From Phlegmacium glaucopus (taxonomy: Eukaryota; Basidiomycota; Agaricomycetes; Agaricales; Cortinariaceae): 21,378 bases of DNA. This document shows, in pieces, positions 1 through 21,000 of this stretch (within the stretch, counting starts at the first letter, position 1; each line of letters opens with the position of its first letter). Where the stretch lies: NCBI GenBank assembly GCA_015039465.1, contig MU130477.1:637046-658423 (forward strand). The letters run 5' to 3'. The notes beneath the pieces are model-generated. The model had not been told where the DNA came from. It saw only the letters and a program-made list of their open reading frames with translations, and did no database searches. The position numbers and the translations under genes are program-made.

Positions 1-1065
1 CCTGTCCTGGAACATTCTGTCCACTCATCATGAGTTTGCAATCTCTGGTGCCTCAACAGGCAGTAAGTCATTGATTCCTGTCCTGGAACATTCTGTCCAC
101 TCATCATGAGTTTGCATTCTCTGGTGCCTCAACAGAGAGTAAGTGATTGATTCCTGTCCTGGAACATTCTGTCCACTCATCATGAGTTTGCATTCTCTGG
201 TGCCTCAACAGAGTGTAAGTCATTGATTCCTGTCCTGGAACATTCTGTCCACTCATCATGAGTTTGCATTCTCTGGTGCCTCAACAGAGAGTAAGTCATT
301 GATTCCTGTCCTGGAACATTCTGTCCACTCATCATGAGTTTGCATTCTCTGGTGCCTCAACAGTTAGTAAGTCATTGATTCCTGTCCTGGAACATTCTGT
401 CCACTCATCATGAGTTAACATTCTCTGGGTGCCTCAACAGTATGTAAGTCATTGATTCCTGTCCTGGAACATTCTGTCCACTCATCATGAGTTTGCTTTC
501 TCTGGCACCTCAACAGGGAGTAAGTCATTGATTCCTGTCCTGGAACATTCTGTCCACTCATCATGAGTTTGCATTCTCTGGTGCCTCAACAGGAAGTAAG
601 TCATTGATTCCTGTCCTGGAACATTCTGTCCACTCATCATGAGTTTGCATTCTCTGGTGCCTCAACAGTATGTAAGTCATTGATTCCTGTCCTGGAACAT
701 TCTGTCCACTCATCATGAGTTTGCATTCTCTGGTGCCTCAACAGAGAGTAAGTCATTGATTCCTGTCCTGGAACATTCTGTCCACTCATCATGAGTTTGC
801 ATTCTCTGGTGCCTCAACAGGAAGTAAGTCATTGATTCCTGTCCTGGAACATTCTGTCCACTCATCATCAGTTTGCATTCTCTGGTGCCTCAACAGGAAG
901 TAAGTCATTGATTCCTGTCCTGGAACATTCTGTCCACTCATCATGAGTTTGCATTCTCTGGTGCCTCAACAGGAAGTAAGTCATTGATTCCTGTCCTGGA
1001 ACATTCTGCCCACTCATCATGAGTTTGCATTCTCTGGTGCCCCAACAGCAAGTAAGTCATTGATT
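1..1065 (+). repeat. 76-bp tandem array: intron-like units separated by 3-nt variable triplets
   Basis: Fourteen units start at 1, 77, 153, 229, 305, 381, 458, 534, 610, 686, 762, 838, 914 and 990; the first is cut by the window edge. Each unit reads as a 73-nt intron: donor GTAAGTCATTGATT, a possible branch site CTCAT about 32 nt before the end, and acceptor CCTCAACAG. Exactly three bases separate each CAG from the next GTAAGT. All 14 donors and all 14 acceptors are intact. By eye the intron part carries about 10 substitutions and one inserted base in roughly 1,020 nt. The triplets are GCA (60), AGA (136), AGT (212), AGA (288), TTA (364), TAT (441), GGA (517), GAA (593), TAT (669), AGA (745), GAA (821), GAA (897), GAA (973) and CAA (1049); 18 of their 42 bases differ from the column majority. 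None is a stop codon. A plain minisatellite is the alternative reading. Confidence 0.95.
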
Positions 1066-1883
1066 CTTTTCTTGGGTTATCATGATTTGAAATTTCCAAC
1101 TTTTCTTTTTAGATTGTAATTATTTTAGTTTTACTTGTTCACCATTCTCAATGTTTAAATTCATTGGATATGATAAACCAGGCATGTTTATTATGTGTTT
1201 ATTCTTATTTTTTTTTGCATTTCTTCATATATTATTCACCAGGATGTGAGTGCAATGACTATCTGTCTCAAAGAAGAATTGTTGGTATGTACTTTTGCAA
1301 TTTCCTCAAAAATGTTACATCCATGAAATTCTTTTTCTACAGTTTTATGGCAAAATTCCTGTGTCTATCTAGTTAAGATATCTGAACCAACTGGACATCC
1401 AATTCTTATCAGTGAGTGTTCTTAATCATGGCTGATTTTTGCAGTCTCAGAATATTATTTATTCTTAGATTGGTTCTCCTTCTGCAAAGCAACAAATTGC
1501 TGGGTTTGGTATTGGTCTGTCATTATCCATGATTTCCATTTTATTCTATTTTCATTTCAGTACAGCATTTGCTATCATTCTGGAGTATTCATTTCACTTG
1601 TGGGACCCAGCACCATCCTCCAATATCAAGTACTTGACCTCCGCAATAGATGTTTACAAGTCATCTGGAAAGCATGTGACTGTCACCGCAGCTGTAGAGA
1701 ATATTTTTGAAGAAGAGAAAGGGCTCTTATTTGGGGAAGTTGAAGACATCGAGAATTCTGGCAAGTCCACTTTTGCTCAGAAGCTCATACAGATTGCTTT
1801 GGAGAACCGTGTATGTATGTTCCACTCTGCATTGGTGAATTTGATCTGTCTGACCTGTACTTTACTAGCTTCATCTCAAATAG
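60..1883 (+). CDS. Putative multi-exon gene with single-codon exons, 5' end outside window
   Basis: Unrecognised gene inferred from splice signals and open frame. If every array intron is removed, the 14 triplets form one reading frame. It continues through a diverged intron (1052-1112, ending CTTTTTAG), another triplet ATT (1113-1115) before GTAATT, an acceptor CACCAG at 1242, exon 1243-1284 (DVSAMTICLKEELL), an acceptor at 1372, exon 1373-1411 (LRYLNQLDIQFLS), intron 1412-1468, and an exon from 1469 (IGSPSAKQQIAGFG). After a small intron ending at 1560 comes the long exon 1561-1810, then donor GTATGT, acceptor TTACTAG (1868) and a five-codon last exon ending in TAG at 1883. A second model, with array introns splitting codons after base 2, acceptor 1128, a GC-AG intron 1182-1242 and acceptor 1342, is also stop-free. 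Both share the C-terminus. Near residue 60 of the long exon, DIENSGKST resembles a P-loop lacking its first glycine. Exact exon edges are uncertain. Confidence 0.5.
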
Positions 1884-2878: not shown

Positions 2879-4174
2879 CTACACAGCTTCATCCTCTGGC
2901 TCAGACAATAGCTGCACAAGGTCTTTGGGATCTTCCATTTCACTATCATCAGCAGTTGTGTTGACCTCAACCGACCCAATAACCGATAACGAGGCCTCGT
3001 GGATCTCACCCCACACCCGTTTTGACAGGGTGGAAACAACTTTATAGTGTGCTGCAGTCTGAACAGCCCATGGTTTACGGACAAAGCTCTTCTTGATGTC
3101 CTTGGTGGGCACATTACCAGTTTGCCATAACTTGAGCGCTCGCTCATGCTTAAGTAAAAAAATCGACAGTCAGAAATAGTAAAATATAAGAATGACTCCT
3201 TTGGACACACCGCTGCAGCGCACAGTGACAGTGCGCCCACTCCATAGCCATAAAAGTCATCCGTTTTCATAATAACCTGTTGGTGAACTGCATACACTTC
3301 CATCAATGCAGCAGAGCGGTATGCTCCAGACTAATAGCCCACGGATTAGCTATGTGTTTTGGAATAAATTAATACCTTTACCTTGGTTACTGGATCACGG
3401 TAGATGTAAGATAGCCCCTTCAGTTCGTTCTCGACATATTCCTTGCATTGATTCTTTGAGTTCTTGAATGGTTCGGCAGCAAAAATTTTTGTGAGACGCA
3501 GGAGAGCGTGCTTGCCAATGGCACTTCTCCAGTTCCGGATCGCTGAACTTGCCTGGAAGTGATGACAATAATTATATCAGTAATAACCACTGAATGCAAC
3601 ATATCTTCCGACTTACCACAGCCTGGACGGCATCGTCAGCAGGTATCTCTGGGAATTCTTCATTCCAGCTGTCTTCAACAATATCCTGGAGATTGGGATG
3701 AAAATTCACAGCAAAGGGCTCCTTGAGTGTCCTGGCCCAATCAATAATGGCAGGAAGGACTGCATTGCGCCAAGTTGCAAGGTCACAAGCGGGGTTGTCG
3801 AATGGGAGGTGGCCGTTTTTGTAGCATGGCTTGGCTGGACAATGCATGGAGACTTGATGTTTTACAGCAGAAATTTCTGCTGTCTTCAGCTTAATGCCCA
3901 TCTAAATACATGTGAGGAAGGTTTTGAGTGATTTTGATTAACTCCGACTTACACTCTTTGTTCCATGTTTGTGGTATTTCCTCACTTCTGCGGAAGCTTC
4001 TTTGACTTTACTCTTCCTCATGGCTGCAAGAACCTCCTCATCTTTGTCCGCGCCTATCTCCCCACCATCATCACTATCCAGATCATCGCCATCGCTTCCT
4101 GGGCTTGGATGCCGATCTCGACCACCTGTGCTCAAATTTTCAGGAGCCTGAGGATGAGCACTGGCAGTGGTGGA
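2879..4174 (-). pseudogene. DUF6532-like gene, 3' half (split by retrotransposon)
   Basis: C-terminal half of a minus-strand gene of unknown function. Exons with canonical sites: 4174-3953 (acidic linker, DDLDSDDGGE), 3901-3617 (PAIIDWARTLKEPFAV, ending AVQAV), 3552-3382 or 3376 (IRNWRSAIGKHALLRL, then YIYRDPVTK), 3330-3211 (MEVYAVHQQV, then YGVGALSLCAAA) and 3148-2879 (ERALKLWQTG, then an acidic tail ending EPEDEAV and TAG). All these introns fall between codons and measure 51-64 nt. The order of a YxDP-type segment, a segment on plant-homeodomain-free helices and ERALKLWQTG recalls the basidiomycete DUF6532 domain; this is family recognition from memory, not a search. The 5' side stops exactly at the left end of the retrotransposon, next to the duplicated GTGGA, and the N-terminal half lies beyond it at 16501-17230. 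Confidence 0.6.
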
Positions 4175-4610
4175 TGTTATGAATGTCTGGTACATGCATA
4201 GCCCCCTACTCTTTTTCTCCCCTTTCTTTACTGTACATTATATCTTCCCTCATTGTTCCCTTCTTACACCACCTTTCCCCAATTTGCCCTTTGCCCTGAA
4301 CCTTCCTTGTACTATATATAACCATCGCTTCCGCTCTCCCTATCTCTGACTTGTACCGACTTGTACCTAGCACAGACCATGGACTATCTCTGACTTGAAC
4401 CCTTACTATATAAGAGCCATACCCATAGCTACAGTTCTCTAGTTTAGACCTTCTGTATTCCCTACGGTCTTAATCTACCTAGCTTGCTCAGAACCTCTTG
4501 GATGTCTAAGTCTCCTTTGTGATAATGATTGCAGTTGTATATAAGTCCCTAGTTATTTGGTCTATCGGCTCAGCACCGAACACAAGTGCAAGCTTATAGT
4601 CGCTGTAACA
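4175..4610 (+). repeat. 5' LTR (436 bp)
   Basis: Starts TGTTATGAATGTCTGG and ends CGCTGTAACA. It matches 15549-16500 along its whole length, apart from the insertion at 15670-16178 in that copy. TG...CA termini lie inside a 5-bp TGTTA/TAACA inverted repeat. Confidence 0.95.
4314..4414 (+). promoter_or_regulatory. TATA-like motifs in 5' LTR
   Basis: TATATATA near 4314-4320 and CTATATAAG at 4406-4414 are conserved in the 3' LTR and are the likeliest core promoter signals for the element. Which one is used cannot be told from sequence. Confidence 0.4.
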
Positions 4611-4821
4611 AAAGGTCTAAACTACTCTTGCATCCACTTCTCTAAGCGCAGATGAACCTTACCTTCTGGAGCCCAACAAAACATGCACTAGCCAACAAAA
4701 CCAGCAAGTTACTTGGATCATCCTTGTAACCTGAACTCGTGTGGTTGCCTATACCAACGGAGTCATAAGAAAGATTGTGTGGTCGCCAATACCAACGGAT
4801 CCCAGGAGATAACACACCACA
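4611..4821 (+). other. Retrotransposon 5' leader
   Basis: Untranslated stretch between the 5' LTR and the gag start. The bases directly after the LTR (AAAGGTCTAAACTACTC) do not match a tRNA-complementary primer site that I recognise. A phrase meaning the same 12-base word ACCAACGGA recurs near 4755 and 4792 in a short imperfect duplication. Confidence 0.5.
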
Positions 4822-5874
4822 ATGTCACAAGGCAAATACAAAGCCCCTATTGAGTCATTGGAAGAAGAAGAAGACACAACCGGAAGCAGTCAATACAACA
4901 CCGACAATGAAGAACCTCCTAAAGAAAAACTTCCCGAGCCTGAACGTATGAGCCACAGCTCTACAACACAGCCAAGACAAGAATGAGTAGGAAGAACCTA
5001 TCAACCAACCGCAGTAGACCAACCAGTCCCCCAGACACCATCAGCTCCTCAGCCTTCTACCTCAGGAAAAGTCAAAACCCCAGTATACACACCACCCATT
5101 GCCCCCTCCCCATTCCAAACACCCGTTCCATTACCACCCACTTCCTTTGGACCTGAAACCCCTGTTCAACAGCCGAAAACCGATTGGGATATAACTAGTG
5201 ACCACAAAGACGACGACAATATGTCTAAAGAAGTATGCATCAACCCCCCACAGCCATACCATGGAGATCAAGATGGATTCCTGTCCTTCCTTCAAGACTG
5301 TTGAGTATACCTCTCTCTCAACGATTCAATCTACAACTCTGACGGCAAACAGATCATATTCATCCTCTCATTCCTCACTGGCGGAACCGCTAAAATCTGG
5401 AAAGAAGCCTTCCTCAATGAATGTCTTGCTAGTACTCCTCCAGACTTTGGAAAATACCCGGACTTCATCAAGAAACTCAAAGAAGCATTTGCCGACGCTG
5501 AAGGAGAAGCCAGAGCCCAATTGCGCCAACTCAGACAAGGAGCCAACCCAGTAGATGACTACATCACACAATTCAGAATCCTCGCTGGACGATCAAAGAT
5601 CAAAGACGACTCAACCCTCATCAATTATTTTTCGGAAGGAATCCACACCACTCTCCTCCAGAAAATCTATGGACTCGAGAACGTCCCTACAGCCATCAAG
5701 GACTGGTATGCTAAAGCCTCTCAATTCAATCTTCAGTACAAACAATGCAAGGAAATAACTCAGCGAAAAACTGGAAGCACCCCACAAGCCAAAAAGACTT
5801 ACCCTGCGCCACGCTATGTTAATCATCATCATGATCCCAATGCTATGGATATTGACACAACTGAGATTGACCGC
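4822..5874 (+). pseudogene. gag: Gag polyprotein, N-terminal and capsid-like part
   Basis: One frame runs from ATG 4822 to the solo-LTR insertion at 5875. The first part is acidic, then proline/threonine-rich. The retrotransposon-gag domain follows from about 5230: PQPYHGDQDGFLSFLQ, LTGGTAKIWKEAF, FIKKLKEAFADAE and LRQGANPVDDYITQFRIL. It would form the particle shell that holds element RNA. Two in-frame TGA codons (4984, 5302) interrupt it. The frame continues after the inserted LTR at 6704 with the zinc knuckle. There is no other stop in 1,053 bases, which argues for recent loss of function. Confidence 0.85.
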
Positions 5875-6699
5875 TGATGAACATCGAGATTTTTTCACCT
5901 ACAAAATTATCACCTTTCAGCTTACTTCATTGAGCATTTGTTTTAATTCTTCTCTTCATTTTACTTATATATTTTCTTATTCCAGCAGCTCATACAGCGC
6001 TTTTCATTTCGTTGTCCTATAACTGTTCCACATAAGGTCACATGATTGTGTCACAAGACTTATGTCATTATCCCACGTTTGCAGATTATTCAATGATCTA
6101 TAATATCATTTTGCATACATTTTCTTTTGTTTTTAGTCATTTTTCATACTCTCTTTTATTTTATGTTCCGGAACCGGATCTTATTTTTGTACCTTATGAC
6201 ACTGACAGTGCGCAGCTTTATTCCTTGCAGCTGTGTTATTTTACCCAGGTTCCTTTTTTTGCTAAGCTTTCATTTACATTCTATTTCTTGACAACCACAG
6301 CCTTTAATTCATTTTAAGTTACATATTTTAACCACATGTTTTGTACCTAGCTCCTTTTAGTTTGTAACGGTTTAGTATAAAGAGTGTATAGTGAGCGCAT
6401 AAAAGAACAATAACAATTCATACCCCTTTTCACCTCTGCATTTAGTAGCTTTAATTCCAAGAGACAGCATTTTGCGGAATTAGCATAACAGTCTCATATT
6501 CACATTTTGCGTTTTGTACGCATAAACTACAACTTTCCCCTCCGCACCTCCTTTCCATCCGCACATTTTATCATCAACTGCACATATTTGACTTGAGTCA
6601 TTCCGCTAGAACTCGACTCAGTGTTTAGGCCATCTAAAACCCCAAACTCGCTATGCTTAACTTATAGCTTGACTTGGTCAACGCTACACAAGCGTATCA
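5875..6699 (+). mobile_element. Solo LTR in gag (825 bp, 4-bp TSD CCGC)
   Basis: Starts TGATGAAC and ends AGCGTATCA, so the ends form TGAT/ATCA. CCGC occurs just before (5871-5874) and just after (6700-6703). Removing the element and one CCGC rejoins gag as EIDR followed by LTIEEREQ in the same frame. AT-rich with a TATA-like TATAAAGA at 6376-6383 and no ORF of interest, which fits a single LTR left after recombination. The orientation is set by that TATA box and is tentative. Its ends and 4-bp duplication match those of the solo LTR at 9472. Confidence 0.85.
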
Positions 6700-6703
6700 C
6701 CGC

Positions 6704-6982
6704 CTCACTATAGAAGAACGCGAACAACACATGAAAGAACAAAGATGCTTCCACTGCCACAAGATAGGACACTTCGCCTGCGAATGCCATTCTAAGCAAA
6801 ACAATGCCATGAACTCAAGCCTGAGCTATATCAAGCCAAACAACAACTATGCCAAGAAATACGACGGATTCAAGAAAACCACAACCACTGCCCGAGCTAT
6901 GATATGAAACTTAGTTGAAGATATGGACATTGAAGAAAAAGAGAAGTTGATAGACGAAGTAGTCAAGGATCAGGATTCTTAG
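6704..6982 (+). pseudogene. gag: Gag C-terminus with CCHC zinc knuckle
   Basis: Continues gag after the inserted solo LTR. CFHCHKIGHFACEC fits C-x2-C-x4-H-x4-C, the nucleic-acid-binding nucleocapsid knuckle. An in-frame TGA at 6905 sits where arginine is likely (MI-stop-NLVEDMD). The frame ends at TAG 6980-6982, a few bases before the protease frame. It is unclear whether this TAG is the natural gag end, with protease reached by a frameshift, or a one-base lesion in a fused gag-pol. Confidence 0.85.
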
Positions 6983-6999
6983 GCAAGCACACAGTTTCA

Positions 7000-7470
7000 A
7001 TGTCTGTGTTGCTGATGATTTCTTCTGTATTAGTAGCCGAGATGGGAAAACAATCTATGATCTTACAGACCCCCATCACGTGCAAAACTGAGAAAGAGAA
7101 CAAAATCATTGACGCCCAAATTCTTATGGATACCGGAGCAGGTGGACTTTTCATGAATGCCGGCTTTGCCAAACAACACCAAATACTTTTATATCCCCTC
7201 AACAAACCCATACTCCCCCAAAATGCAGACGGATCCCCAAACTCAAATGGGAAAATCACGCATTATACCTGGATCAGATATCAACAAGGCAACAGTTGGA
7301 TGATGGAACGACTTCACATTGTCACAATCACCAGCGCCGACATTATATTTAGACTCCCCTGGTTCCAAGATCATAACCCTCAAATAGACTGGGAAACTGG
7401 ACGAATGCATCTTCCAATGGGAAAACACCAACTGGCCCTGACTTACAACCGAAGGAACCAACAACCACTA
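7000..7470 (+). pseudogene. pro: Retroviral-type aspartic protease
   Basis: Protease module of pol, which would cut the polyprotein. The active-site motif is LMDTGAGGLFM (DTGA at 7129-7140), and the conserved downstream flap/ILG-type segment reads IIFRLPWFQDHNPQIDW. These two landmarks are correctly spaced for a Ty3/gypsy protease. It lies one frame away from gag. No stop interrupts this module. The open frame runs on to 7584, but only through the 20-bp tandem repeat. Confidence 0.85.
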
Positions 7471-7570
7471 CAAGAAACGCAAAACACCCACAAGAAATGC
7501 AAAACACCCACAAGAAACGCAAAACACCCACAAGAAACGCAAAACACCCACAAGAAACGCAAAACACCCA
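7471..7570 (+). repeat. Five 20-bp tandem repeats between protease and RT
   Basis: Exact head-to-tail copies of CAAGAAACGCAAAACACCCA, with one C-to-T change in copy 2. Because 20 is not a multiple of three, each added copy changes the frame. Protease (before) and the RT linker (after, from ATG 7590) are now in different frames. The expansion or contraction is therefore a plausible cause of the frame break. Confidence 0.95.
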
Positions 7571-7589
7571 CACCACTACCTTAAATAGG

Positions 7590-9379
7590 ATGGAAATTGA
7601 CGAAACACGATACGACCAAGTAGAAGAGGAAATGAAAGAAATGATAGAGAAATGGAAAGAGAAGAGAAAGAAGAAAATTAAACCCTGAAGAAGCAATTCC
7701 CCAAATTGGAGAAAAAGAGAACAAGTCACCCTCACCCCCAAAACTCCAACTCTTCCAAAAGCCACAATAGAAGAAATTGAAGACGAGGAATCACCCCTCA
7801 ACTTGACACTCCTAAAATTGGACGACGAAAACAAAACCATTGAACTCAACCTCAACGACAGTGAAACCAAGCTAGTTGCCGCTTTTATCAACTATGTCAC
7901 GGACAACAAACTCTGGGTTAACAAAACCAATGTCTCTACCGCTCTAGCTAGTGAACAAAATGCAAAGAAAGATGAGAAAACCTTGGAAGAAATGATACCA
8001 CCGGAACTCATGGATTACTGGCGCATCTTTGACAAAGAAACCGCAGAATGATTCCCTGGAGCTAGACCTTACAATCATGCTATAGATCTCAAGGACAACT
8101 TCATACCTTGCAACTGCAAGGTTTACCCACTCACACTACTGGAACAAGCTGAACTGGACAAATTCCTCAAGGAAAACCTCGACAAGGGCTCCATATGACC
8201 ATCCAAGTCCCCCATGGCATCGCCATTCTTCTTCGTTGACAAGAAAGACGGAAAAGTATGTCCTACACAGGACTATCAAATGCTAAACGAAGGAACAGTC
8301 AAAAACACCTATCCACTCCCCCTCATCTCCGAACTCATAGACAAACTCAAAGGCACCAAATACTTCACCAAATTGGATATCCGATGGGGTTACAACAATG
8401 TACGCATTTGAGACGGAGACCAATGGAAAGCAGCTTTCAAAACCAACAAAGGATTATTCGAACCAACAGTCATGTTCTTCGGACTCTGCAACTCCCCTGC
8501 CACATTCCAAGCAATGATGGACGACATATTCATAATCGAAATCACCGAAGGATGAGTCGTCATCTATATGGACAACATCTTTATATTCACCAAAATGATC
8601 ACTGAAAACATGGAAAACACTCGATGAATTCTCCAACGTCTCGCCAACAATGACTTGTATCTTAAACCTGAGAAATGTGCTTTCTGGCAAACCAAAGTGG
8701 AATTCCTAGGACTAGTCATCAAAGAAAACAAACTCGCTATGGACCCTGTAAAACTCGCTGGAATTGCTGACTGGCCTGCACCAACCTCAATACATGAAAT
8801 CCGCTCTTTCTTAGTGTTGTTGAGGCTGGCTTGAGCAATTTTAGTATTTTTCAAATAACATGACACTATGTACTTTGATTTCTTAGTGTTGGGAGATGAC
8901 CCCTGGCTTATAGGGTCCTCTATATGTGTAAATATTTATAGACTTTTATAGGATTTATTAGAATTTATATTACCATCAAGCCATTTGCCAAGTGGCTTCA
9001 AGCCAGCCACCTGACCAAGTGGTTTGATGGAAATATCAATTCCAATAAATCCTATAAAATTCTATAAATATTATACACACATAGAGGACCCTATAAGCCG
9101 GGGGTCATCTTTCAACACTAAGAAATCAAAGTACATAGTGTCATGTTATTTGAAAAATACTAAAATTGCTCAAGCCAGCCTCAACAACACTACTCTTTCT
9201 TAGGCTTTGGCAACTACTATCGACGATTTATCCAAGGGTACGGCAACATGACAAAACCACTCAACAACCTACTTAAGAAGGATACAAAATTTGAATGGAC
9301 ATCCAAACAAAGCCAGGCTTTTGAAACACTCAAGAAGAAATTCACGGAATCCCCAGTTCTACGGATGCCTGACGCAACA
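7590..9379 (+). pseudogene. pol: Reverse transcriptase (interrupted by hAT MITE)
   Basis: One frame from 7590 through 8811, resuming at 9201 after the MITE. It begins with a charged linker. RT landmarks in order: [69 protein letters not shown] and FLGFGNYYRRFI. The catalytic box at 8565-8576 is YMDN, not YMDD. GAC to AAC after a C is a CpG-type G-to-A change and should abolish polymerase activity. In-frame TGA stops lie at 7686, 8049, 8196, 8409, 8553 and 8625; at most of these the family has arginine (for example before FPGARPY, before PSKSP and before DGDQWKAAF). Removing the MITE plus one CTCTTTCT restores EIRSFLGFGNYY. Confidence 0.93.
8812..9192. mobile_element. hAT-type MITE, near-perfect palindrome (381 bp)
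   Basis: Flanked by the 8-bp duplication CTCTTTCT (8804-8811 and 9193-9200). Both ends read TAGTGTTGTTGAGGC. The outer 80 bp of the two arms are identical by eye, and inverted similarity, with mismatches, continues almost to the centre near 9000. The terminal word TTAGTGTTG recurs at the inner edge of the identical zone. No coding capacity. The TAGTG end and 8-bp duplication fit the hAT superfamily, and the whole element could fold as one hairpin. Confidence 0.9.
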
Positions 9380-9961
9380 AAACCCTTCGAACTCAAGACG
9401 GATGCCTCTAAATATGCCTCAGGAGCAGTACTACAACAACAAGACAACAACAGAGACTGGCATCCTTGCGGTGATAGGACTGAAAGTTGAATACCTATGG
9501 ATTATTCAATTTTTCATAATATTATTCTTCAATTGAATCAACAAGATCAATAACCCAACCATGAATTAATCTACAAATTGATATTGTAAGGGTCAAAAGT
9601 GTTGACTACACTTGTTGATTAAACTGGAAATTGCATAGTAATAAATGTTAAAGCAGCAGATAACTATGATCTGAATTGATCTATTTATCATACTGTTAAA
9701 ACAACACTACAAAATGTTCAGACTCTAAACCATACAAAATCCATAATGGTCAAATGAACTACTTGCAATCTAAAGTAACTATCAAAGTCTACAACTATGA
9801 AGGATTGTTATACAAGTCCTAAGGATAACATCAGTAAATCAAATATCAATAAAAGGTCCTAATAATGAAGCATGTGATATCATGTGACATCATGTGACAT
9901 TTCGTGACATTTGTAACATTTTTGTAACATTTTGTAACATTTTGTGACATTATGAAACATA

Positions 9962-10213
9962 TGACATCATAAAACAATGACATCATCTAGAAACAAGACA
10001 TGACATCATAAAACAATGATCAGTCATCTAGAAACAAGACATGACATCATAAAACAATGATCAGTCATCTAGAAACAAGACATGACATCATAAAACAAGA
10101 TTTGTCATCTAAAAACAAGACATGACATCATAAAACAAGGATTTATCATCCAAAAACAAGACATGACATCATAAAATAGCATCAGTAATCATAAAACATA
10201 GACATGACATCAC
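9962..10213 (+). repeat. About six 39-41-bp repeats upstream of the solo-LTR TATA box
   Basis: Units begin TGACATCATAAAACA at 9962, 10001, 10042, 10083, 10123, 10164 and (partial) 10204. A simpler run of TGTGACATCA and TAACATTTT words precedes them from about 9872. In an LTR this position suits enhancer repeats. TGACATCA is close to a cAMP-response/AP-1-like site, but that role is inference. Confidence 0.85.
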
Positions 10214-10383
10214 AGACTCTTACCTAATTTTGTTTCTCATTTATGTATAAAAGTAGCTAGAAAGCACCAGTAAAATGAGTGAATTTGCACTCTTCCTTTC
10301 TTTCCCAAGTTTCAGCGCTCTGAATTGGCACAAGTTAGAATTGGAATTACAAGTGGACTTGCTTTGCTTCACTCAGTTCAAAG

Positions 10384-10660
10384 GGTATTAAATCCTAAAG
10401 GGACTTACCTTTGTTCTGTGTAAACCAAGAATATTAAATCCTTTAGGGACTTGTCTTGGAAGCAAGGATATTAAATCCTTTGTCAGAGTCTGAGGAGAAA
10501 TCCTTGTACTATAAAGCTGTCTCACAGTCTGCCTCAGGGACTTTAAATCATTTGTTGTGGATAGTCAAAGAATATTAATCCCTAAAGGGGCTTGTCTTTG
10601 TATTACCAAAATTGGTTATCATATAGACAAAGGATATTAAATCCTATAGGGACTTGCCTT
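10384..10660 (+). repeat. Dispersed repeats around ATTAAATCC in the solo LTR
   Basis: Six related copies of a word like GGATATTAAATCCTTTAGGG lie near 10384, 10430, 10466, 10540, 10570 and 10630. Most are followed by GACTTGTCTTTG or similar. They lie downstream of the TATA box, so they would be in the transcribed part. Confidence 0.7.
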
Positions 10661-11229
10661 TGTTCTATCAAAAAGCACTATATAATAGTCTAAGAAATTG
10701 GACTATAAACTTGTTATCAGAATCATAGTCTAGAGAAATTTGGACTTTAAAAGTGTATTGTTGTTTTATTCAAGAGTATACTGGTTATACTTTCAAGGAA
10801 ACCCCAACTTGCACAAAAACAGAGTTTGTTGGTCATTAAAGTTACTGGTTTCTGGATTTGTTGTAGACAATTCCTAAAATAGTAATCCTTTGATTACCAA
10901 ATAAAGCCAAACTCAATCATATCAGCGGATACCTATCCAAGTCATTTAACAACACGGAACAGAACTATGAAATTTATGACTGTGAACTACTAGCAATGAT
11001 CCGAGCTCTTAAAGAATGGCGACACTACTTGATGGGAAACCCATACCCAGTCACTGTATGCTCTGACCATAAGAACTTGACTTATTTCAAAACCGCTCAA
11101 AAACTCAACCAACAACAAGCTTGATGGAGCCTCTTCCTCTCCAAATTTGACATCCACCTCACACATGTCCCTGGCACTCAAATGGTCCAATCAGACGCCC
11201 TCTCATGACGCGCTGACCTTACTATTGGA

Positions 11230-12337
11230 ATGGAAAACAACAACGAAGACCGCACCTTACTCCCTGACAACCTCTTTGTTAACACTATTGACACGGAGCT
11301 TCAAAACCTTATAACCTCTACAAAACAAATGGACGATGTTGTCAAAACCGCTCTGCATGCGATCCTCCATGGTGGACCCCTCCCTATGCGCTCTGCCCTT
11401 AGTGACTGGCGAACCGACGGTGACTTGGTCTTTTATAAAAACCGCTGCTACGTACCTGATAACATGGACTTACACCGTAATATTGTTCGCAAACATCATG
11501 ACTCTATCCCTGCTGGACACCCTGGACGCCTCGTTACCCAAAATCTAGTCCAACACAATTACTGGTGGCCCGGGACAGCTACATTCATTCAAAACTACAT
11601 TGATGGCTGTGCCATATGTCAGCAACACAAGATAAATCGACACCCTATTTCCCCACCTTTACAACCTATCCGTCCTGAATAACTCCACCCATTCTCCCTG
11701 ATCACTATGGATTTCATCACAGATCTCCCGTCCTCCGATGGCTTTGACTCTATCATGGTCATGGTCAACCACAGGTCTATGAAGGGGGTAATTCTAACTC
11801 CATGCCACAAAACGATTGATGCCAACGGAACTGCCTCTATTTTACTTGACTCACTCTACAAAAGATATGGACTACCGGACAAAGCTATTTCTGATTGTGG
11901 CCCTCAATTTGCCTCTCATGTCTTTTGGGAATTAGGATGACTTCTTGGCATCAACCTAGTCATGAGTACAGCCCATCACCCACAGACAGACGGAGCCACC
12001 AAAAGAGCAAACCAAGAGATTGAAGCTTATCTATCCATCTTCTGCGCAAATAACCCTGACCAATGGCGACAATACCTCCCTACCCTCGAATTCTCTTACA
12101 ACACTAAACCGCATGCTACACAAAAAGAATCTCCCTTATTCCTCCAAATGGGTTACAACCCAACTGCTATCCCCACCACATTCCCTAGAACCAACATCCC
12201 TGATACCCAAGAATGCCTTATCAATCTCCAAGAAGCACGGAAAGAAGCCAATGCAGCTCACGAACTTGCACGACAAGTCATGACTGAACGCATTACCCGA
12301 GGTTTCACCCCATTCAAGATAGGAGATAAGGTGTGGC
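11230..12337 (+). pseudogene. int: Integrase: zinc-binding and catalytic domains
   Basis: Inserts the cDNA into the genome. The HHCC zinc domain is visible as VRKHHDSIPAGHPG and CAICQQHK. The catalytic core shows TMDFITDLP (first Asp), SDCGPQFAS (second Asp; family usually SDRGPQF) and DGATKRANQEIEAYL, where the third catalytic residue (family TER) is now Lys. That codon (12001-12003) is AAA after ACC, consistent with GAA losing G in a CpG. Stops: TAA 11680 (probably CAA originally) and TGA 11938 (ELG-stop-LLGI). The core ends at GDKVW, where a solo LTR is inserted. Confidence 0.93.
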
Positions 12338-13335
12338 TGTTACATTCCATTATACGTTACTCCGGTCTGGCTCTGTCAGAGCTGTCTCCGGTAGTCCGTA
12401 CTCCGTACAGTGCCTTACCTTATATCCCAAACTACTTTTCCTATGTTCAACTCCGAGACCTTTCCGTGTCATTCCAGTTCCTCCATCTATACTCCAAACC
12501 TGTTACCACTTCTTCACCACTACCACTATTCTTTGTCATCATCCTTCCCACCATCAGTCAGCATACCCACCATGGATTATTCACCCAATAATGCAGAACC
12601 TTTCCAGGAGCAGAACGCAGCACTTATATCTATATTCTATATTTCGGTTGTGTTAGGGGACACCCAACTTTAACCCAAACCTCAACCTTAGAATCATATA
12701 CCCTGCCTTTCCAACGACCTCCGACCTTCCGTCCAACTCTGCTTCCATCACCAGTTTACTCCGGAACCCTGTAGTTCCGCTCCAACTGTGATCCTCCATT
12801 TCACTCCATCTTTTATTTCTATTTTTCATATCACACCACTTCTTATTTAATTAATTAATTATTATCATATCATTCCTTTATTTATATCATATCTCCGTTA
12901 TGTCCATATTAGTACTTAAACACCCCCAGCCTAGCAGGGATCCCCATCCTTTCCTCTTTGGATCCCCTGCTAGGTAAGTCACTTGTAGATATCTTTTCTG
13001 AAATATTATTAACTTTGGATCCCCTGCTAGCTTGACTAAGTCAGCGTCACAGTTGCCCTAATAGGTTGCTATTCCTTTATTTATTTAAGTACTCGAAACT
13101 TGTATGTTTTCTTCAGTTCAAATATCAACTTTGTTTCCTCCTCTTGTTTGTCCTCTAAGTCACTGAGGTCTTCCATCTTATTCCTTCTTCTTCCAGTTCC
13201 GAAATTAGGACACTATAGGAGTTGGGTGGCACAGCACACACGCTGAGGCCAATGTCCTTTCTGATTACTTGTTCCGGTTCCATTCCATCCATTCCAGAGT
13301 AACTCTGACATGACTTCCTTGTTTTAAACTTAACA
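12338..13335. mobile_element. Solo LTR in integrase (998 bp, 5-bp TSD GTGGC)
   Basis: Starts TGTTACATTCC and ends ACTTAACA, with GTGGC at 12333-12337 and 13336-13340. Removing it and one GTGGC restores GDKVWLESRY. The termini equal those of the host LTR, but the interior is unrelated. Around 12930-13030 the words GATCCCCTGCTAG recur twice, with an inverted CTAGCAGGGATC. No gene seen. Confidence 0.88.
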
Positions 13336-13340
13336 GTGGC

Positions 13341-13740
13341 TCGAGTCACGATACCTTAAACTACAATATGAAACCAAGAAAATGGCACCTAAGCAAGAAG
13401 GCCCCTTCAAAATTATAGAAGTTCTAAGTCCCCTCAGCTACCGCCTGGAATTACCTCGCTCCTGGAGAATCCACCCAGTCATTCATATTATGCTACTTTC
13501 CCCTTACAAGACAAATGGAGTCTATGGCAATAACTTCCCACAACCACCTCCTGACCTTATCGAAGGACAACCGGAATATGAAGTCGAGTCAATAATCTCC
13601 CACAGATGACAAGGAAGAGGATACACCTTTCTTGTAAAATGGAAAGGATACTCAACTGCAGAAAACACCTGGGAACCTGAATGAAATGTCACCAATTCAC
13701 AAGAACTTCTTCAAAGCTACAAAATTCAACACCGACTCTA
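13341..13740 (+). pseudogene. int: Integrase C-terminus and chromodomain
   Basis: Continues integrase after the solo LTR. The GPY/F-type module is MAPKQEGPFKIIEVL and YRLELPRSWRIHPVIH. Then a chromodomain: PEYEVESIISHR, GYTFLVKWKGYS and NTWEPE. In chromoviruses this domain directs integration to marked chromatin. TGA codons at about 13607 and 13682 replace the residues after SHR and WEPE. The frame ends in TAA near 13740, overlapping the start of the next ORF. Confidence 0.9.
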
Positions 13741-17506: not shown

Positions 17507-18480
17507 CACTACAGTGTATTGAATGATACGATTCCCAGAACGGACACACTGTGTCAAAAGATACAGATTCACGGGGCCCCATGAATGTGGGAATATGGTA
17601 TTCTATATTTGGATCTACACACTGTGTCGAAAGATACGGATTCACAGAATACCTACGGCACTAGACAATGCCGGGCAGGTCTATCAGCATGGCCGGGTGC
17701 TGTCAACCGATCTGTTTTGGTAGGGTGTATGAGCTGGCAGGAGTTTGTTGTACTGGTGATAGTTGGCCATCTATGACTGGGTGATGCTCAGATCAACCAG
17801 CTGTTACTGGGATGAACAGGGACGTGTACAGCTGGGATAGAGAGAGAGGCAGTAGGTGTCAAAAGGTATGAACCGGCACTGCATGATCAGGAGTGCAGGG
17901 TATGACATGGCAATGCCGGTATATGAACAGGCCGGCAACTCTATGGATGAGCCAGCATTACATATATGAACCGGCTATGACCAGGGCTGATAAACGGGCA
18001 GTCCAGACTGGCGGTACTACTGCTGGTATAAGCTGGGAATGTACAGTAAATATGGAAGTACAGATATCAGATGGTAATACTCATGACCTGGCTATGGCCA
18101 GTGATGCAGACTGATATTAAGCACTCAAGACAGCCCGGCATTAAAAGGAATAATCAGCACTGCCGGTACCTCGCAAGAATGTCTCAACCAGGACAGTATG
18201 AACCGGCAGTCTGAACCAGCACATTGTCTAAACCGGCAGATGATGTCTCAACTGGCACATTATAGCTGACCCAGCACATTATGTCTGAACCGGCACATAT
18301 CTGACCCGGCACATTATATCTCAACCGGCACATTATGTCTCAACTGGCACATTATCTCAGCCGGCACTGTGGGCCTACATGCATTTGGAATTGTCTGGGA
18401 TGAAATATGGAATATGTGGATTACTCTTCCCGGCTGAGTCCAGATATTCTATCCACAATGTAACTAACTAGTTATGGTGT
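17507..18480. mobile_element. CACTA-type terminal/subterminal region, copy A
   Basis: Begins CACTACAGTGTATTG; CACTA is the terminal signature of the CACTA/EnSpm superfamily. Subterminal motifs follow: ACACACTGTGTCAAAAGATAC with GATTCACGG appears twice near 17541-17655, and CCGGCA or TGCCGG words are scattered through the rest. The order of blocks matches copy B at 19839. GGA precedes the terminus and could be a 3-bp target duplication, but the right end is not seen. No gene inside. Confidence 0.65.
18191..18372. repeat. Short tandem repeats of AACCGGCACATTATGTCTC type
   Basis: About nine or ten imperfect 17-20-bp units. Each has an ACCGGCAC-like core (also ACTGGCAC and CCCAGCAC, as expected from C-to-T or G-to-A change) followed by ATTATGTCT. 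It lies in the subterminal part of copy A, where transposase-binding arrays are usual in CACTA elements. Confidence 0.8.
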
Positions 18481-19838: not shown

Positions 19839-21000
19839 CACTACAGTGTATCAAAGGGTACGATTCCCGGAACGGACACACTGTGTTGAAAGATACGGAT
19901 TCACGGGGCCCTGTGAATCTGGGAATACGGTATTCTATATTTGGATCTACACACTGTGTCAAAAGATACGGATTCACGGAATACCTACGGCACTAGACGA
20001 TGCCAGGCAGGTCTATCAGCATGGCCGGGTGCTGTCAACCGATGTGTTTTGGTAGGGTGTATGAGCTGGCAGGAGTGTTTTCAACTGGTGATAGTTGGCC
20101 ATCTATGACCGGGTGATGCTCAGATCAACCAGCTGTTGCTGGGATGAACAGGGACTTGTACTCCTGGGATAGAGGCAGTAGGTATGAACCGGCACTCCAG
20201 GATCAGGAATGCAGGGTATGAAATGGCAATGCCGGTATCTGAACAGGCCGGCACCTCTATGGATGGGCCGGCAGTACATATATGAACCGGCTGACCCACA
20301 GAGCCGATGATAAACGGGCAGTCCAGACTGGGGGTACTACTGCTGGTATAAGCTGGGAATAGTACATTAAATAGATATCAGACGGTAATACTCATGACCT
20401 GGCTATGGCCAGTGATATAGACTGATGTTAAGGACTCAAGACAGCCCGGCATTAATTAGCACTGCCAGTGACTAGCAGGAATGTCTGAACCGGGACAGTC
20501 TGAACCGGCAGTCTGAACTGGCAGATTGTCTGAACCGGCAGATTGTCTGACCCGGCAGATTGTCTGACCCGGCAGATTGTCTGAACCGGCACACTCGACC
20601 GGCAGGTGTGGATGAGCCGGCATTACATATATGAACCGGCTATGACCCACAGAGCTGTGATAAACGGGCAGTCCAGATTGTAGTATCAATAGGCGGTGCT
20701 GTTGATATAAGCTGGGAATAGTACATTAATATGAAGCAGCAATCAAGAGAGCCTGGCATTAAAAGGATTAATCAAAATTGCCAGTATCTATGTTTCGTGT
20801 AAGCCGGGAATATATCCAAGCACTGCCAACTGGCACAATATGAACCGGCACGTCAGACTAACTAGCATTGCAAGAATCAACCCAGACTAGACGGCATTGG
20901 TGTGTCAATCCTCATTGTGTATGCCGGCAATATTTATATCAACCAGCATTTATCAACCGGCACTGTCCACGATTGAATCACATAGACTAGCTATTGGGTA
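19839..21000. mobile_element. CACTA-type terminal/subterminal region, copy B
   Basis: Begins CACTACAGTGTATCAAAG and follows copy A block by block for roughly 600 bp (the GATACGGATTCACGG motifs, GGCCATCTATGA, CAGATCAACCAGCTGTT and CTCATGACCTGGCTATGG). It then diverges into its own CCGGCA repeats. A segment around 20263-20400 (CATATATGAACCGGCT, then AAACGGGCAGTCCAGA) is repeated at about 20623-20740, an internal duplication. GCA precedes the terminus. It lies just 3' of the small gene at 21028, as copy A lies 3' of the gene at 18496. Confidence 0.65.
20475..20606. repeat. Tandem repeats of CTGAACCGGCAGATTGT type
   Basis: About seven 17-bp units (TGTCTGAACCGGCAGAT with variants), the counterpart in copy B of the array at 18191-18372 but with a different spacer word. 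The shared CCGGCA core and divergent spacers suggest selection on the core. Confidence 0.8.

Follow-up and report, generated by a model that had tools for sequence, protein, structure and literature searches.

The first 1,066 bp of a 21,378-nucleotide stretch of contig MU130477.1 of Phlegmacium glaucopus, an ectomycorrhizal agaric, are occupied by a 76-bp tandem array of 14.0 copies (window 1-1066; the window is the whole stretch of DNA analysed), in which intron-like units are separated by three bases each. The locus raises the question whether these triplets are exons of a single codon, and how they could come to differ from each other while the introns between them remained nearly identical.

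Anatomy of the array in the window

Each unit of the array consists of a 73-nt intron, GTAAGT...CCTCAACAG, followed by three bases. The window opens on the plus strand, to which all positions refer, with the 3' part of an array intron (1..59), the 5' part of which lies in an assembly gap. The 14 triplets follow as predicted one-codon exons in the order GCA (Ala, 60..62, between CAACAG and GTAAGT), AGA (Arg, 136..138), AGT (Ser, 212..214), AGA (Arg, 288..290), TTA (Leu, 364..366), TAT (Tyr, 441..443), GGA (Gly, 517..519), GAA (Glu, 593..595), TAT (Tyr, 669..671), AGA (Arg, 745..747), GAA (Glu, 821..823), GAA (Glu, 897..899), GAA (Glu, 973..975) and CAA (Gln, 1049..1051), the last being the final one of the homogeneous array. 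Every triplet is flanked by CAG on the 5' side and by GTAAGT on the 3' side. The first complete array intron (63..135) has 73 nt, and 12 more introns, each 73 or 74 nt long, separate the following triplets up to position 1048. With up to three mismatches allowed, 14 of the 18 matches to the donor 14-mer were located inside the array, 3.1 being expected across the whole window.

The original prediction had described 14 units with 73-nt introns, GTAAGT donors, CAACAG acceptors and a constant three-base spacing. Triplets, donors and acceptors were found as described, but only 13 complete array introns are present; 12 of them have 73 nt and one has 74 nt, and the window begins inside the intron 5' of the first triplet. 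CAA is followed by an intron (1052..1112) that is not of the array type either. It begins with the donor stretch of the array introns, has a different 3' part ending in TTTTTAG, is 61 nt long, and is followed by an additional 3-nt exon, ATT (Ile, 1113..1115). The predicted variability of the triplets (18 of 42 bases off the majority, eight kinds of triplet) was obtained again on recounting. The 12 introns of 73 nt differed pairwise by 1.6% and the triplets by 55.6%, a 35-fold contrast. The array directly adjoins an 8.7-kb stretch of N on its 5' side, and its true length may therefore exceed 14 units.

Behind ATT, a 127-nt intron (1116..1242) leads to the predicted exons DVSAMTICLKEELL (1243..1284), LRYLNQLDIQFLS (1373..1411; acceptor picked by frame and by likeness to the homolog P0010) and IGSPSAKQQIAGFGI (1469..1514; compare IGPPPKARQLVQLCI in P0010). 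These are followed by a large predicted exon for a C-terminal helical domain (1566..1810) and by a predicted final exon encoding LHLK and the stop (1869..1883). The homologs P0010 and P0054 end in NHRLSL and DNRLSL, respectively. No match to Rfam was obtained for the window, and the array unit had no match in the viral contigs or in the plasmid collection searched.

Host gene and exons behind the array

A search of the genome for the same units elsewhere, as the original prediction had proposed, returned at least eight further loci. In eight of eight further loci the array lies 3' of P-loop GTPase exons. The paralog L013 matched Pfam MMR_HSR1 with 22.3 bits (cut-off 21.9) and contains the P-loop and G motifs GRSNAGKTT and FTKFDAL, and 34 of 37 aligned relatives matched the same family (E<=0.01). 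The gene in the window (L010), whose own 5' half lies in the gap, is assigned through these paralogs and would thus be a member of the GTPase family.

The open frame of L013 comprises a start codon, eight ordinary exons, a TTG exon, 24 array codons and ATT. On the 3' side of ATT it continues through five exons to the stop, with AG and GT at each boundary. A shorter model of L013, ending in FYGKIPVSI, was replaced by this model running into the C-terminal domain because the homologs have such a domain.

A strict text pattern of the window's tail matched none of seven paralogs, and the tail was then mapped by alignment in eight genes. It was whole in five of the eight (L010, L011, L013, L015 and L017). 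Frameshifting deletions were present in L012 and L014, and L016 had neither the stop nor one of the GT donors. The intron that closes the array measured 61 nt in the five genes with a whole tail, 52 nt in L012 and 58 nt in L014, and the ATT exon was identical in all eight genes compared. The large exon was free of stops and frameshifts in seven of the eight genes of this 73-nt intron family. Its dN/dS was 0.354 (28 paralog pairs), compared with 0.233 for the GTPase exon before the array (21 pairs), and it is under purifying selection in this family. In a second family, with 53-nt introns, dN/dS behind the array was 0.62 (15 pairs from the six of nine copies with enough coverage), and single-base gaps occurred behind the array in C3 and C145. 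Such selection on sequence 3' of the array would be expected only if splicing removes the array or runs through it. Together with the five whole tails, the purifying selection on the large exon makes splicing of the array very probable.

Of nine P. glaucopus gene models examined, eight end at or just before the array (P0001-P0006, P0121 and P0124), while P0123 joins the flanking exons (YFPQIV to DSISKIMSPI) and leaves the array out. The array may therefore also be skipped as a whole. If the arrays are spliced as predicted, over a thousand exons would be absent from the gene models of this fungus. A protein search of the genome with the GTPase domain gave at least 215 matches, counted exon by exon. 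A protein search restricted by region, for linker and C-terminus, gave a single protein (P0002). In the JGI-sourced homolog P0160, WFPHI and SSPLEN are about 50 residues apart, and the genome-predicted homologs P0042 and P0025 have 20 and 24 residues to the matching point. In P0010 and P0109 the linkers are long and variable. The short JGI contigs, such as the one behind P0160, are, we infer, transcripts.

Arrays and intron families in the genome

All DNA-level data come from one P. glaucopus genome (60.5 Mb, 259 contigs). The pattern GTAAGT-N(40-70)-CAG-NNN-GTAAGT occurred 1081 times in it (600 and 481 by strand), compared with 79 matches for the control pattern read backwards. With a spacer of 4 nt the same pattern gave nine matches, and with 6 nt seven. 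For GTGAGT donors, 558 matches were obtained with the 3-nt spacer (control 69) and 60 with the 4-nt spacer (control 193); 31 of these 60 belong to backwards-written stretches of C203 and C249. In the loci that were fetched, 3-nt spacers formed chains of 4 to 25, while other lengths formed chains of at most 1. The exceptions were 6- and 9-nt spacers in L016 and L018, which represent backwards sequence or its complement.

The number of units per gene array ranged from 8 to 82. Units were 3 nt in 213 of 218 cases in one parse and in 359 of 382 in the parse of the 53-nt family, the remainder being mostly at the array ends. The longest array (L014 plus L049) contains 82 consecutive 3-nt exons from GAA to ATT, separated by introns of 56 to 81 nt. 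The parser allowed exons of 0-12 nt in this array, and the final parsed unit, AAT, with which the next exon begins, was left uncounted. Arrays with 53-nt introns, again with 3-nt exons, were present in nine parsed GTPase paralogs. Their place after YFPQIV, in the WFPH position, was shown for C62 and C171.

Further families of GTGAGT introns were found among the matches listed, in C7, C17, C24, C28, C6 and C16. Tandem GTGAGT introns with 3-nt exons extend over C7:70494-72038, C17:13653-14987, C24:119771-121979 and C28:11850-12078, and those of C7 and C24 are near GTPase exon matches. In C6 the array lies behind an open frame in which NPHP3_N was matched with 99.6 bits (cut-off 24.8). NACHT scored 22.5 bits in this frame, under the cut-off of 26.7. 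Half of this NLR frame gave no Pfam match, and NPHP3_N appeared once the upstream piece was added. C16 contains a relative, 76% identical and in the same order by position, with one TGA within the NPHP3_N match. The consensus interiors of the 73-nt, 53-nt and NLR introns were no more alike than shuffles (p 0.44, 0.61 and 0.31). At least 150 NPHP3_N matches were counted in the genome as a whole, a large NLR repertoire.

Triplets as predicted codons, and splice signals

Stops and diversity were counted in 17 arrays with 560 triplets (73-nt family, 8 arrays with 214; 53-nt family, 9 arrays with 346). Not in this set are the NLR arrays, short loci that overlap, and L018, which has a single unit before its sequence turns backwards. 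Before counting, a 2-nt exon in L011 was dropped, as were parses at array ends and ambiguous parses of the 53-nt family; in that family 23 of 382 units were not 3 nt, although three in C62b and one in C145 are also readable as 3 nt. Only three stops were found in phase 0 among the 560 triplets, compared with about 50 expected. The 73-nt family had one (17.8 expected) and the 53-nt family two (32.2 expected). The expectation was obtained by shuffling bases within codon positions, and none of 5000 shuffles reached the low count of either family. Phases 1 and 2 contained 1 and 28 stops in the 73-nt family and 13 and 46 in the 53-nt family. As phase 1 also has a single stop in the 73-nt family, the test there favours phase 0 or 1. 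The upstream exon ends, and the downstream exon starts, in phase 0. The NLR arrays of C6 and C16 contained no stop in 77 triplets, compared with 10.6 expected, after three of 78 units had been dropped. As judged from their sequences, the triplets behave as codons. Lesions of frame or stop inside the arrays included the 2-nt exon in L011, a TGA in L017 and one TAG each in C8 and C15.

Donors were GT in 556 and GC in 4 of the 560 cases, and acceptors were AG in 559; the parser favoured GT and AG. In the diverged array of L014, G1, A41, A72 and G73 were invariant among the 54 introns of 73 nt. The branch motif CTNAY around A41 was retained in the same introns (C in 51, T in 52, A in 54 and Y in 54), with N free. 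CTNAY was present in 71 of 80 introns of L014, yet also in 60 of 80 reversed strings. Although the introns of this array have diverged by 21% pairwise, donor, branch point and acceptor are still intact. The argument from splice signals leans on this 82-exon array, whose gene has a broken end.

Variation of codons and introns

The original prediction had named spacers of variable length, together with introns varying like the triplets, as a result that would speak against it. This result was not obtained. The spacers are 3 nt. Triplet pi was 0.53-0.73 in 17 of 17 arrays at an intron pi of 0.009-0.24, so that even in arrays whose introns differ by up to 24% the triplets are still 53-73% different. 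In L010, L013, L015 and L017 intron pi was 0.009-0.016 and triplet pi 0.56-0.66. Intron difference was 0.009-0.060 in the genes with a whole tail and 0.038, 0.082 and 0.207 in the broken genes. In none of the 64 paralog pairs did the similarity of the codon strings exceed that of shuffles (lowest p 0.057), with flanks up to 96.5% identical (a figure that excludes seven pairs with L010).

Adjacent units of the 73-nt family with identical introns shared the codon in only 3 of 43 cases. Over all distances in this family, the codon was shared by 40 of 347 pairs with identical introns and by 94 of 1543 pairs whose introns had at least 8 differences. Identical introns went with a shared codon in 15 of 31 pairs of the 53-nt family; codons therefore travel with introns there, and the decoupling of codons from introns is not complete. 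Synonymous codons were used as if each intron family had its own stock of units. The ratio of GAA to GAG for Glu was 13:0 in one intron family and 5:24 in the other, and that of AAA to AAG for Lys was 14:0 and 2:7. Codons ending in C were found 2 times in 214 and 0 times in 346, and whether the third base is A or G depends on the intron family. The scarcity of C-ending codons may be due to CpG decay at a C before GT, or to splicing. The array of C3 (L055) contains 18 adjacent identical codons, compared with 6.4 expected, and runs of GGA. These runs would represent a recent expansion of units and would yield a glycine-rich linker.

Explanation of the arrays

The triplets are probably one-codon exons in phase 0, which together would encode a hypervariable linker between the GTPase and the C-terminal helical domains. 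RNA splicing would join them in phase 0. The near-identical introns would serve as a substrate for recombination by which units are gained, lost and exchanged. Frame and splice sites would survive because the breakpoint falls in an intron, and the introns would thereby be homogenised. Diversifying selection would keep the codons different during this process. Single codons could be skipped in frame, giving more products, and skipping would make the few stops, like the 2-nt exon of L011, harmless. Finally, the linker may form the recognition surface of an immune-type receptor, a step supported by the NACHT-type NLR domains that precede similar arrays in the same genome. The gene with one-codon exons and homogenised introns that had been proposed originally is supported, and along with it the proposed hypervariable device that keeps the frame.

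It is doubtful whether selection alone can explain changed codons beside unchanged introns in 40 of 43 cases, and a change targeted at the codons was therefore kept as a rival. By this account the exons are coding, but their codons are altered by hypermutation or untemplated filling-in and not by recombination and selection. We regard it as unlikely, although several observations fit it: adjacent 73-nt units whose introns are identical have different codons in 40 of 43 cases, a GTAAGTG change is common to four neighbouring L013 introns although these follow TTT, TCT, CAT and GTA, and the rules for the third base are family-specific (209 of 214 codons end in A or T in one family, and none of 346 ends in C in the other). 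Stops are avoided, from which it follows that selection acts whichever process changes the codons. Duplication of units along with the codon is, moreover, seen in L016, where AAT follows each of two 68-nt introns, and the 18 adjacent identical codons of C3 also speak against it. It is still less probable that the array is a non-coding minisatellite in one large intron, removed in a single splice, with the triplets as spacers. Tandem repeats are common in introns, and the gene model P0123 joins YFPQIV directly to DSISKIMSPI. Such a repeat would leave unexplained the avoidance of stops, the 3-nt spacers in diverged arrays and the conserved splice signals (donor, branch point, acceptor). Nor would it explain why the layout recurs with introns whose similarity does not exceed that of shuffles (p 0.31-0.61).

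Introners occur as many near-identical introns per genome, dispersed over many genes, and the introns studied here are near-identical within and between several loci. The original prediction had considered an introner-like element behind each codon, which would mean a mobile intron repeatedly inserted into an ordinary exon. This explanation was abandoned as very improbable, since the GTPase arrays examined are at one place in the gene, the number of units varies about tenfold (8 to 82), and no codon string is common to paralogs whose flanks are 96.5% identical. Unrelated codon strings and a variable number of units mean that no shared pre-existing exon was cut up. We know of no cause for a 3-nt insertion rule in introners. 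The arrays are also tandem, in GTPase genes or behind NLR domains among the matches listed, unlike introners. That the arrays were created by the assembly is hardly credible, although parts of two of them were. Array sequence is written backwards without complement in L016 (about 3395-5225, gene orientation), beside a poly-T run, and in L018 (from about 5085), and the window array adjoins an N gap. Eight full units of the stretch in L016 matched the reversed string within three edits. Both stretches must be artefacts of assembly or gap filling; they probably explain much of the control counts with the backwards pattern, and details of L016 and L018 are therefore unsafe. The remaining arrays are continuous and differ among themselves; they mostly preserve frame and splice signals and are distributed over many contigs with unrelated introns.

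Predicted protein

A structural model was obtained for the homolog P0010 (458 aa, mean pLDDT 81). Its GTPase and C-terminal helical parts were confident, while pLDDT was below 50 at residues 304-341 and 350-353, where the array would fall. The leading Foldseek matches were chains of mouse GM4951 and Irga6 (E from 6.5e-6), followed by bacterial dynamin-like proteins. The fold matches to GM4951 and Irga6 had low TM-scores of at most 0.44, an rmsd above 10 A and 10-14% identity. On the model, the likeness to immunity-related GTPases (IRG) is a lead and no classification. GM4951, one of the leading fold matches, is interferon-inducible.

A more far-reaching proposal can be put forward only tentatively. 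IRG-like GTPases and NACHT NLRs, as two receptor classes, might share a store of about 1600 one-codon exons across the genome, the introns around them being interchangeable. Mutation targeted at codons, or recombination sparing them, might be a dedicated process that, together with optional skipping of each exon, generates a repertoire of hypervariable linkers with a role comparable to antigen-receptor diversity.

Comparison with known systems

The micro-exon genes of Schistosoma also contain arrays of tiny in-frame exons, the skipping of which changes the protein. Those micro-exons are longer and of several sizes, whereas the exons described here have 3 nt. A single 3-bp microexon is reported for Drosophila homothorax in the excerpt available (PMC7392893). 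This is one such exon in one gene, as far as the excerpt goes, compared with arrays of 8 to 82 here.

The claim that no such system had been described did not stand. Excerpts of PMC4986451, PMC10197012, PMC3689799 and PMC9815663 attribute many alternatively spliced 3-bp microexons to the NACHT-ANK ('nank') genes of Tuber melanosporum, first described by Iotti et al. (2012). To the extent of these excerpts, the genes of both systems belong to a rapidly evolving, receptor-type family in an ectomycorrhizal fungus and have codon-sized exons by the tens. The truffle is an ascomycete with NACHT-ANK genes, while the window gene is that of a GTPase in a basidiomycete. The trait of tens of 3-bp exons in one gene was found here with 8 to 82 per gene, 14 of them visible in the window. 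The NACHT domain is not part of the window's GTPase family, but NPHP3_N precedes two other arrays. No ankyrin repeats were detected by Pfam in the model of L013, which ends early. The WD40 repeats of the Podospora HNWD genes are another parallel; according to the excerpt of PMC9815663, concerted evolution keeps them alike with few highly variable positions. Repeats are near-identical within the gene and few codons are hypervariable in both cases. The constant part is protein in HNWD and intron here, where each repeat has one variable codon and no repeat domain is formed.

The closest precedent is thus the 3-bp microexons of the truffle NACHT-ANK genes, with the same anatomy, here in another phylum. 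Here the arrays are found in GTPase genes and also after NLR domains, the intron families are several and unrelated, and the contrast of homogenised introns and hypervariable codons was measured. No report of arrays of codon-sized exons in basidiomycetes was found in the open-access literature searched. If spliced as predicted, the arrays of this mushroom would diversify the proteins of two receptor-type gene classes residue by residue, with recombination acting on the introns. They would provide a test case for the splicing of 3-nt exons, for a homogenisation of introns that spares the bases between them, and for the question whether fungi hold a rapidly diversifying immune repertoire.

Other features of the window

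No Pfam match was obtained for a 390-aa minus-strand frame that lies between two minisatellites. These consist of related CTGAACCGGCA-like units and are located about 2 kb apart at 18209-18367 and 20482-20591. Pieces of a Ty3/Gypsy-type LTR retrotransposon, in separate frames broken by stops, extend over 4987-13609, and Pfam identified gag, protease, RNase H, integrase zinc-binding and SH3 domains in this region.
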